Shown here piece after piece: positions 17,372-21,262 of a DNA stretch of 64,000 bases. Location of the stretch: NCBI GenBank assembly GCA_029641185.1, contig JAPWGK010000005.1:868001-932000 (forward strand). The letters run 5' to 3'. Source of the stretch: Pseudofabraea citricarpa. Lineage: Eukaryota; Ascomycota; Leotiomycetes; Helotiales; Dermateaceae. The notes beneath the pieces were generated by a model. The model made no database searches, had not been told where the DNA came from, and saw only the letters and a list, made by a program, of their open reading frames with translations. A program made the position numbers and the translations under genes. Numbering within the stretch: position 1 is the first letter of the stretch; every line of letters starts with the position of its first letter.

Positions 17372-20317
17372 TCAAGCAACAGACCCAATTACCAAAGCAG
17401 CCATACCTTCTTCATCACTTCGTACCACAATCTTACTTGTGACACCAGACTTGGTCGAATATGCCATTCTGATATTGGCAACCACCTTGCCGCCTGTGAC
17501 TGTCTTTCCGAAAAGCTTGAGTGTATGTGTGGTGGTGTTGATCGGTACATCGGTACCTTCGAGGGCTTGTAATGACAAAGTCTTTGCCAGTTGTTCCGTT
17601 GCGTCTGTAAAATGTTAGATTTAGGTAGAAGATGGATATATAAGGGTAACGTACCTGCAATACTCTTTACGCCGCTCAATTGCAGCGTCTCCTCTGCTTC
17701 CTCCCCAGATGCGCCAACCTGTTCCCAGATGTGATTGAAGTTACCAGCAAAGGCCGGGACAACATAATCGCTTCCAGAAAGGTCCAGGTCCTCAACTTGG
17801 TATTCATCGTCATAGCCTGTCTCTTCAGGCTCACCAGTTGTAGGGTCGATCTCCTTGCTGGTGAACTTCAACACGTTTGTAAAGCTGCTCGCAGGGAATG
17901 CAGCCTCGCCTCCAGTCTTCTTAAACGACACGTAAATAGTTCCGGGCTCATCTGTCGCAAGCTTGGTAGCAGGAATGATGAAATCTTCCTCAAGCTCATC
18001 CTCTTCTGTTGGAGTAGCTACGACAGAGACATCCTCGAGAACGGTATCGGGGAGTGTGTTCTTCACCTCATACTGGAGAACAATGTGCTCCTTGAAGATA
18101 TGTTTGACCACCGAGACAACATATTCTGTCTCAGACTCGGTCAACTCAACAGCAGGAGATGATTTCAAAACACTTTCGTAGGCCTTGAGTTCCGGAATGG
18201 CCAGTAGCTCTTGGGCATACTTTTGTGCAGCTGCTGATGCTGTTGCGATAGCCTCGGCTCCAGATGGTGCAGACTTGCTTGGGCCAGACTTTGGTGCCTT
18301 AATGGTTGGTGTAGCAGTTGTAAGTTTCTTGGATCTATCTTCTGCATCTGCTTGCTCCTTTGTGACAACTGGGATAGATGCAACATCAAATGGAGCGTCA
18401 AAGGTTGATTTGTCCTCGGCTGTGACATACATGACCAACTGGTGCTCGAAATATGGTAAGGCGAAAGTGCTCTCTGCCATGTATTAGAATAGGAAATGAT
18501 TGGTGACTTAGTGCACTTACCATTCTTAACGAAGCGATCGGCCATTTCATCGGACTCGGTCATCAATCTCAAGTTCAACGCAGCACGATCACGGACTTCA
18601 TCATCTACATCATCCAAGCATCTGGTCAAGAGAACTGTGACACTGCGCTTGACTTCAGGATCTTTCTGTCCAACACCAAACTTGGCCAAAGCAGTCACTG
18701 CTGCAGCGCGAACAATGGCGTTTTCTAGAACCACACGATTGTAGATGTACCTGATGTACTTGGTGGGCTGAGAAGTTTTGGGTCCTTCCAATCCAAGCAA
18801 ATGCAAAATTCGGACAGCCAGCTTGGTGAACTCACAATCCTCAATGAATTCGCAGAGATGTGCCAATGCATCTTCTTTCGAGTCGGGTACAAATTTAATC
18901 AGGTCGAACATACTCTCCACAACGGCTCGCTTGAATTCAAATCCTCCCTCGTCTCTCAGGATGCCACTCAGGAATGCAAGCATACCAGCTTGCTTGTTAG
19001 GGAATTTAAGGCAGAGAGTTCGGATTGCTTCAACGATTGTGATCTTGAACTCGTCTGTGATATCAGCCATAAAGCCAGAAATCTGCTTCATCAACCGGTC
19101 AACACTAGCTTCGTTGCCTGTCTTGAGAAGTGTGGTGATAGCAAATGTGGCAATGGAACGATTGGTGTTAGAGATGAGAAGTTCAATATCGGGGTTACAA
19201 GGATGAACAGCTTGTGGTTTGAAAGAGGCAAAGTTGTGTAGGATGCGAATAGCAGCGAATTTAGTCACCGCTCTAGGAGAGGTGAGGAAAAGCTGTAGAA
19301 CGTGGATTGCTTGTGTGACCTCAGCATCTGTGACGTCTCGCATGTCGCAAATAGCCTTTGCAGCCTCGAAGTTAACCATTTCACTCTTGTGTCGGAGCCA
19401 GCCGTCCAGTAATTGCATCATTGGCTTGCGAAGCTGCTGGTCCTCCTCAGCCAATTGCGCTGCTAACCGTACCAACATGACTGTTGCTGCCGGACTCTTG
19501 ACTGCGCCAGGAGCTCCAAACTGCTGTACCATCTTGACCAAGGCCATCCTGTCGTGCATTCTCATCTGGTAGAGAAGTCCGATTGCGTGGTACTGCGAGA
19601 TTGTGGAATTGTTCGTTGGCATTTGCGAGCTCGAAGTCGAGAAACCAAGGGAGAAACCACCAGATGACTTCGTCGAGGAAGCAGCTTCTTGAGTTTCGCT
19701 CTGCCATCTTCTAACAACATCTCGTGCGATTGGCAGGAGATGATATGATGAAACGAGGGCGGCCGAGGAAACAGATGGGTTCTTGTCCACAATTGCTGTC
19801 TTCATAACACGCTCAATACTTTGCACAGTTGTAGCCTGGATCTGTTAGCTTGGTCCCCTTCCTAGCGCGCCTCAAGAACCCACGTCAATGATACGGCACA
19901 GAGCTCGAATAGCGTTTGGTCTATAGATCGCATCCGTTCCACCGCCAGTATCTTTCATGATTGTACTTGTGACCATAATAATGTCCTCCGCTGAGTTTGC
20001 CAACTCTTTGATAATCAGGTGAACCACCTGCCGTAAACTGGCATCTTTATTCTGGAAGAGTTTCGAGATACCAAAGAAGAGGGTGGTGGCTTCATTGGTA
20101 GGGAACCGCTCCCCGGTATAGAGGAGGAGGGCAATCTTGGTGAGGAGGACTCGACATCTGCGCGGCTGAATTGGAGAGGAATTGAACAATCGTGCTATGC
20201 CTTGTGAGCTGAGTTGGCTTCTAGAGGGGGGGATGGCGGACCTTCTTGGAATACAGAGGTTCTGTCGACCTTCATGACGGTCGATTCCGCATCTTCATCT
20301 TTCTTGCTGTAACTCAT
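17372..20317 (-). CDS. SEC21: Coatomer subunit gamma (gamma-COP)
   Basis: Subunit of the COPI coat that forms retrograde Golgi-to-ER vesicles. Exons: 20317-20242, 20200-19884, 19835-18521, 18473-17655 and 17604-17372, giving 919 residues, matching the family. The N-terminus MSYSKKDEDAE and the following RLFNSSPIQPRRCRVLLTK and KNPSVSSAALVSSYHLLP segments begin the adaptin-like alpha-solenoid trunk. A linker with SGAEAIATASAA leads to the appendage domain (ALEGTDVPINTTTHTLKLFG, near the C-terminus). Introns 2-5 have good signals (for example GTAAGT..CAG at 18520-18474). The first intron (20241-20201) has a weak GTCCGC donor and an AAG acceptor, so the exact exon 1 junction is the least certain part. 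The large middle frame reads through an intron, which would otherwise suggest two separate genes. Confidence 0.96.
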
Positions 20318-21113: not shown

Positions 21114-21118
21114 AAAAA
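21114..21118 (-). terminator. Pol III terminator of the tRNA gene
   Basis: A run of five T on the tRNA strand, 8 nt after the tRNA 3' end. Confidence 0.65.
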
Positions 21119-21125
21119 TATAATG

Positions 21126-21262
21126 TTCCGCTGCCGGGAATCGAACCCGCTGTTATATTTGTTAGTATCTGTTGTGGTGTGTATGTGAGTCAAGATGTAC
21201 TTACGGGCTGCCCGGCGCTCTCTGGTGAAAGCGGGCTATGTTAACCCCTACACTACAGCGGA
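21126..21262 (-). tRNA. tRNA-Glu(UUC) with an anticodon-loop intron and a spliceosome-like insert in the T arm
   Basis: The mature 72-nt molecule folds completely. The seven-pair acceptor stem is TCCGCTG/CAGCGGA with discriminator A. The D stem is GTGT/ACAT, with the loop AGGGGTTA that forms part of a good A box. The anticodon stem GCCCG/CGGGC carries loop CTTTCAC, anticodon TTC (Glu). The T stem is CCGGG/CCCGG with loop TTCGATT (B box). Two inserts must be removed. The first is 10 nt at 21225-21216, between positions 37 and 38, where nuclear tRNA introns always sit. The second is 55 nt at 21204-21150, at the variable loop/T stem border; it begins GTAAGT, contains ACTAAC and ends AACAG. A single long intron cannot explain the gene, because positions 38-48 lie between the two inserts. 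Whether the gene yields a functional tRNA is not known from sequence alone. Confidence 0.85.

Follow-up and report, generated by a model that had tools for sequence, protein, structure and literature searches.

In Pseudofabraea citricarpa, the window analysed here (the whole stretch of 64,000 nucleotides) contains a nuclear tRNA-Glu(UUC) gene that is, with a probability of about 0.87, functional, transcribed by Pol III into a precursor with both a 10-nt endonuclease-type intron and a 55-nt U2-type spliceosomal intron, and part of a set of such genes, namely six tRNA genes and the U6 snRNA gene. The gene anatomy, the splicing signals and the pattern among paralogues are seen directly in the genome, and from these we infer removal of the 55-nt intron by the spliceosome. 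The original prediction of a Pol III tRNA transcript whose maturation depends on two machineries, the tRNA endonuclease and the spliceosome, is still the best reading and is supported by the introns found in two tRNA-Glu genes, four tRNA-Thr genes and U6.

The tRNA-Glu(UUC) gene and the mRNA introns of the window

The tRNA-Glu(UUC) gene is located on the minus strand (positions 21126..21262) and contains two introns, with a total length of 137 nt and a mature length of 72 nt. It was recognized by its sequence, by a match to the Rfam tRNA model and by ARAGORN after removal of the insert. Exon 1 (21226..21262, 37 nt, nucleotides 1–37) includes the 5′ strand of the acceptor stem, the D arm with the A box and the anticodon UUC. 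The 10-nt intron (21216..21225) follows at 37/38, the canonical position for the tRNA endonuclease. Exon 2 (21205..21215, 11 nt) consists of nucleotide 38, the 3′ strand of the anticodon stem, the variable loop AGCC and C49, which is the first nucleotide of the T stem. The 55-nt insert (21150..21204) is placed between T-stem nucleotides C49 and C50; its signals, shuffling results and a paralogue on contig C43 identify it as a putative spliceosomal intron. The last exon (21126..21149, 24 nt) comprises the remaining T arm, the 3′ strand of the acceptor stem and A73. As predicted, the A box, the B box and a T5 run resembling a Pol III terminator (about 21114..21118) were all found intact.

The insert, read from 21204 to 21150, begins with GTAAGT and ends with AACAG, as had been described. 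The branch-site motif ACTAAC is also present, but it had been placed 15 nt before the intron end, whereas the hexamer actually ends 11 nt before the 3′ end. The 55-nt deletion cannot be shifted along the sequence, because the flanking base C differs from the last intron base G and the first intron base G differs from the following C.

No tRNA was reported by ARAGORN with the 55-nt insert retained, and none in the run on the whole window. When the insert was removed, the program called the resulting 82-nt gene tRNA-Glu(ttc) and placed a 10-nt intron at 37/38. These calls agree with the earlier statements that exact deletion from GT to AG restores the T stem CCGGG/CCCGG and a 4-nt variable loop, that the insert breaks the arm if left in place and that a second, standard 10-nt insert is present at 37/38. 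The unspliced gene scored 30.8 bits against the Rfam tRNA cut-off of 29 when a 301-base stretch was searched with lax filters; it was not reported by the Rfam scan of the whole window at the gathering threshold. In the spliced tRNA, the acceptor (UCCGCUG/CAGCGGA), anticodon and T stems are fully paired and the short D stem contains one G-U pair. The minimum-energy fold of this RNA is not the cloverleaf.

To describe the signals, a strict rule was used, namely a GTANGY start, a YAG end and YTRAY located 4–20 nt before the end. Only 1 of 200,000 shuffles of the window insert obeyed it, and for each insert of the set described below the number was 0–1 per 200,000. An insertion by chance was rejected on the basis of the shuffles and the paralogues.

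The introns of the coatomer gamma (COPG) gene (17375..20317, minus strand; 99% identity with Phlyctema vagabunda, Leotiomycetes, Helotiales, across 79% of the query) were used for comparison. Protein homology revealed three of them (17605-17654, 18474-18520 and 19836-19883), and the stretch that separates coatomer exons 1 and 2 was dropped as an intron candidate since it had no GT start. The three introns are 47, 48 and 50 nt long, start with GTAAGT, GTGGGT and GTACGT, contain CTAAT or CTAAC 8–9 nt before the end and terminate in CAG. A scan of the window for mRNA introns gave 19 rows corresponding to 17 distinct introns, of which 5 were dropped (no frame shift and no homology support) and 12, including the three from COPG, were kept. 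These 12 predicted introns have lengths of 46–79 nt, and 9 of them pass the strict rule; of the other three, two start with GTG and one has its branch site 3 nt before the end. Their likeness to the tRNA insert is partly built in because the scan demanded GTRNGY, CTRAY and YAG, and only the COPG introns are independent. As these three homology-backed introns resemble the insert in length, branch motif and CAG end, the claim that it has the signals of mRNA introns in the window holds.

The coatomer gene lies downstream on this strand, with its start at a distance of about 800 nt, so that the insert might instead belong to a Pol II transcript that runs across the tRNA, for instance in the coatomer 5′ leader, and be unrelated to tRNA maturation. 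This is extremely improbable: splicing reconstitutes the T stem exactly, the C43 copy has an identical junction although its similarity to the flanks of the window gene ends within about a dozen nucleotides, and splicing of the D-arm introns likewise reconstitutes the tRNAs of the Thr genes exactly. An intron of the tRNA precursor itself is the reading followed below.

A second tRNA-Glu gene, four tRNA-Thr genes and U6

The second tRNA-Glu gene is located on contig C43 (about 1361076-1361282, 207 nt), and its exons comprise the same 72 nt as those of the window gene. It contains a 51-nt D-loop insert at 20a/21 (GTAAGT...TCTAAT...CAG), a canonical 31-nt intron at 37/38 and a 53-nt T-arm insert at 49/50 (GTAAGC...ACTAAC...CAG). 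The last one has the same position as the window insert and a different sequence; the similarity of the two 49/50 introns is borderline, with 26 of 500 shuffles scoring as high. BLAST similarity of the flanks of the two genes extends no more than about a dozen nucleotides beyond the gene.

Several pattern searches in the genome were related to these genes. A pattern of CTAAC plus AG just before the T arm was found at 9 places, compared with 5 for the reversed control pattern. The nine places are the window gene, C43:1361243, two tRNA-Glu(CUC) genes and five places without tRNA features (lacking the combination of an acceptor partner and an A-box start at the position tested), and the T-arm junction is common to two of them, the window gene and C43:1361243. 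A 21-nt pattern covering the T arm and acceptor had exact matches only at the window and C43 loci, with two further places at 3 mismatches. The pattern of a T-arm insert of the GTAAGT type occurred at 3 places (4 in the control) and that of a D-loop insert at 13 places (33 in the control), and the sole tRNA among them was the window gene and the C43 gene, respectively. Another intact tRNA-Glu(UUC) gene, with a different body and a 25-nt intron at 37/38, was found at C7:650083, and thus the pair of genes in the window and on C43 may be dispensable. Six tRNA-Glu(CUC) genes have introns at 37/38 only. In two tRNA-Glu(CUC) loci (L061 and L064, on C12 and C32), the 37/38 introns end in the branch-site-like CTAACAGGT and have no GT start; this ending is probably due to chance.

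Four tRNA-Thr(AGU) genes, which emerged from the survey of 100 of 107 B-box sites, have one common 72-nt sequence, and each contains a GT-AG insert in the D arm. Three inserts are located at 23/24 (56, 55 and 55 nt; one gene on C28 and two on C34) and one at 19/20 (55 nt, on C10). The splice points of the Thr introns can each slide by one base, and the GT-AG option was taken. The three 23/24 introns are related to each other, as 3, 0 and 0 of 500 shuffles reached the observed scores, and the 19/20 intron is not clearly related to them (40 of 500 shuffles). The two genes on C34 also have about 35 nt downstream in common. A C50/U64 mismatch is present in the T stem of all four copies, and the minimum-energy fold of the spliced RNA is a cloverleaf with a shortened T stem. 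ARAGORN misnamed all four genes (L159, L161, L162 and L128) as Val(cac) or Ile(aat). With the intron left in, three of them scored 43 bits, above the cut-off of the Rfam tRNA model, as matches that tolerate inserts.

A search of the genome with a 31-mer running from the anticodon to the T arm, with up to 3 mismatches allowed, gave 4 places, which are the four intron-bearing genes, and none in the control. No intron-free Thr(AGU) copy was found with this 31-mer, which would not detect a Thr gene interrupted at 37/38. A doubtful candidate for such a gene is locus L100 (C1:1559074-1559404), which ARAGORN called Thr(agt) with a 16-nt intron. It has G at position 14 and a T-stem mismatch, gave no match to the Rfam tRNA model and is either a pseudogene or a tRNA-like RNA.

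The U6 snRNA gene was found at C2:955479-955745 (locus L095) with 33.2 bits, which is under the cut-off of 44. This was the one match in the genome; the search scored 47 of 2951 candidates, and further U6 genes are possible. Three GT-AG inserts of 55, 50 and 52 nt are present, the second of them directly 3′ of ACAGAGAAGA, and their removal leads to a U6 of 110 nt with an intact ACAGAGA region and a T run at the 3′ end.

Taken as a set, seven GT-AG introns in the six tRNA genes (two Glu and four Thr) and three in U6 were compared. All ten inserts are 50–56 nt long (51–56 nt for the seven in tRNA genes). Their starts are GTAAGT (7), GTAAGC (2) and GTACGT (1), so that GTANGY fits all ten, and their ends are CAG (9) and TAG (1). 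YTAAY is present in 10/10 (one as TTAAC) within a hexamer ending 10–11 nt before the intron end, and three of the ten contain further YTRAY-like motifs elsewhere. According to the numbering of this analysis, the tRNA inserts are placed at 19/20, 20a/21, 23/24 and 49/50, and none at 37/38. These four positions, three of which (19/20, 20a/21 and 23/24) are close together, suggest repeated gain.

The state of the genes was evaluated by their exons and flanks. The exons are identical at 72 of 72 positions between the two Glu copies and among the four Thr copies, and the introns differ. Exon-confined gene conversion could in principle also be a source of identical exons. All seven tRNA introns are located between the A and B boxes, both of which are whole, and therefore the internal promoter is intact. 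A run of T5 or longer starts within 25 nt downstream of all six intron-bearing tRNA genes; T4 or longer within 60 nt was found for 64 of 75 other tRNA genes and 18.6% of random sites. The upstream motif CAA[AC] accompanies 6/6 of the genes, 65/75 of the other tRNA genes and 34% of random sites, and a TATA-like motif 4/6, 50/75 and 17%, respectively.

These data make a tRNA pseudogene with a chance insertion a most unlikely reading of the window gene. The identical 72 nt in the C43 copy, kept together with different introns, argue against pseudogene status, as do the paired stems of the window tRNA (with one G-U in the D stem), the intact Pol III flanks of the intron-bearing genes and the repetition of the pattern in four tRNA-Thr genes for which no intron-free sister was found. 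On the other side, there is the separate intact tRNA-Glu(UUC) gene. The original prediction would have counted several intact genes of this kind, together with a silent window copy, against itself; one such gene was found, and its body is a different one. In addition, PMC4090602 describes eukaryotic D- and T-arm insertions as located mostly in one of many synonymous genes, which were supposed to be pseudogenes.

For working genes, the consequence is more general. It is likely that the spliceosome is an obligatory tRNA-processing machine in this lineage, with repeated gain at four sites in tRNAs and three in U6: every Thr(AGU) gene found, and hence the decoding of ACU and ACC, would depend on spliceosomal excision of an intron from an RNA made by Pol III.

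Proposed removal of the introns and comparison with known systems

In the textbook picture, a protein endonuclease that recognizes structure cuts the introns of nuclear tRNAs at a single site, 37/38. U6 is not known to be among its substrates, and the spliceosome is not known to process tRNA. In the proposed pathway, Pol III would transcribe the pre-tRNA, the GT-AG intron would be recognized by its sequence (GTAAGT, ACTAAC and CAG) and removed by the spliceosome as in the mRNAs of the host, the 10-nt intron at 37/38 would be cut by the tRNA endonuclease, and the ends would be trimmed after the T arm becomes foldable. As the 49/50 intron splits the T stem, it would have to exit before T-arm folding and probably before trimming of the 3′ end.

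Alternatively, the ectopic inserts could be removed by the tRNA splicing endonuclease, which is very unlikely. All seven carry the signals and length of mRNA introns, although the endonuclease recognizes structure, and the same signals are present in U6, which is not known to be a substrate of this enzyme. A simple helix test gave 1 bp for the window insert and 2 bp for the 49/50 insert of C43, and a helix of at least 3 bp was possible at the tested place in 3 of the 7 inserts. The test itself does not discriminate: values of 1–7 bp were obtained for 38 introns called by ARAGORN, a few of them doubtful (at least 3 bp in 30/38), and 1–5 bp for the seven ectopic inserts, so that the sets overlap. 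What speaks for the endonuclease is that non-canonical introns, including those of the T arm, are known in eukaryotic tRNAs and that BHB motifs are considered critical in Cyanidioschyzon merolae (PMC4090602).

In that alga and in the nucleomorph of Guillardia theta, introns are located in the D, anticodon and T arms, with several per gene (PMC4090602 and PMC9602550). The review PMC4090602 ties the C. merolae introns to the tRNA endonuclease and BHB motifs, describes the splicing of the G. theta introns (3–24 nt) as not understood and contains no word starting with "spliceosom". Unlike these introns, the tRNA inserts studied here are 51–56 nt long and have GT-AG and branch-site signals. They also differ in position, constancy of length and sequence signals from the canonical 37/38 introns, which are present in the same genes (10 nt in the window gene and 31 nt in the C43 gene).

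Spliceosomal introns are known from other small RNAs. According to PMC10484740, the mRNA-type intron of fission yeast U6 is spliced and is thought to derive from reverse splicing. The U6 introns of fission yeast and other fungi resemble those described here as GT-AG introns in a short structured Pol III RNA, and U6 of the analyzed genome has three; the difference is that the host here is a tRNA, outside the spliceosome. Because a tRNA is not a spliceosome RNA, its acquisition of introns cannot be attributed to a place near the catalytic centre. Fungal U3 snoRNA genes contain GT-AG introns with branch sites of the RCTRAC type in 138 of 310 genes, with presence varying between paralogues, and the same 2017 paper recognized no small structured RNAs other than U3 and U6 as frequent hosts of introns (PMC5832005). 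The U3 introns are thus similar to the introns found here in having GT-AG and branch-site signals within a structured small RNA and in differing between paralogues; tRNA is not one of the hosts named in 2017. Among the papers listed by the literature searches, which covered published work largely outside subscription, none dealt with spliceosomal introns in tRNA genes.

If the proposed reading is true, tRNA genes with spliceosomal introns tie protein synthesis directly to the spliceosome, and Pol III transcripts besides U6 can be spliced. They would also offer a natural test of the origin of new introns by reverse splicing into abundant structured RNAs. Such genes can be missed or misnamed by annotation programs, as ARAGORN gave no tRNA for the two Glu genes and Val or Ile for the four Thr genes.

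Scope of the genome search and other loci

The genome searched comprises 43,985,132 bases in 43 contigs. A total of 107 B-box sites were found with GGTTCGANTCC; the survey covered 100 of them, corresponding to 97 distinct contexts after identical tRNA copies were collapsed, and the C43 Glu gene in addition. Other tRNAs may be missed because this survey covers a single T-arm spelling. Among 134 distinct GGTTCRANYC sites, 68 passed an acceptor and A-box filter, and GT-AG inserts at positions other than 37/38 occur in 6 of the 68; the rows include L068, a contig from a virus collection, and L141, a doubtful composite that was not counted. The window gene escaped the genome search with the Rfam tRNA model, in which 63 of 1716 candidates were scored.

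No intron-free relative was found in the contigs of prokaryote genomes or in IMG/VR. Two IMG/VR contigs (L067 and L068) contain an isolated T arm with the 3′ half of the acceptor, 23 nt identical to the window tRNA, and the rest of the tRNA is absent.

A pattern of CTAAC before the anticodon arm was found at 9 places compared with 15 in the control, namely three known Thr genes, an ambiguous tRNA-Tyr and five places without tRNA features. The tRNA-Tyr gene (L166, C39:404426-404756, minus strand) has a 64-nt intron at 37/38 that contains TTACTAAC...TTCAG, and GTAAGT extends across the anticodon. This is possibly a nested spliceosomal intron or a matter of chance, and the gene was kept outside the counted set.

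The survey also revealed a tRNA-like family (L122, C7:82124-82941, three copies, and L072, near C11:111353) with acceptor-like ends of 7 bp, a B box, the motif TCTTCGGA and a variable middle part. These elements are probably transcribed by Pol III; they gave no Rfam match at E 0.05 and weak matches under the cut-off at E up to 5. Two further loci (L149 and L150; C23:2265980-2266310 and 2280745-2281075) yielded nothing in Rfam, even with E values of up to 5 allowed. They encode two related RNAs that share CCAACTTACCCAGCGT and have a B box close to the 3′ end, and these are probably Pol III RNAs as well.
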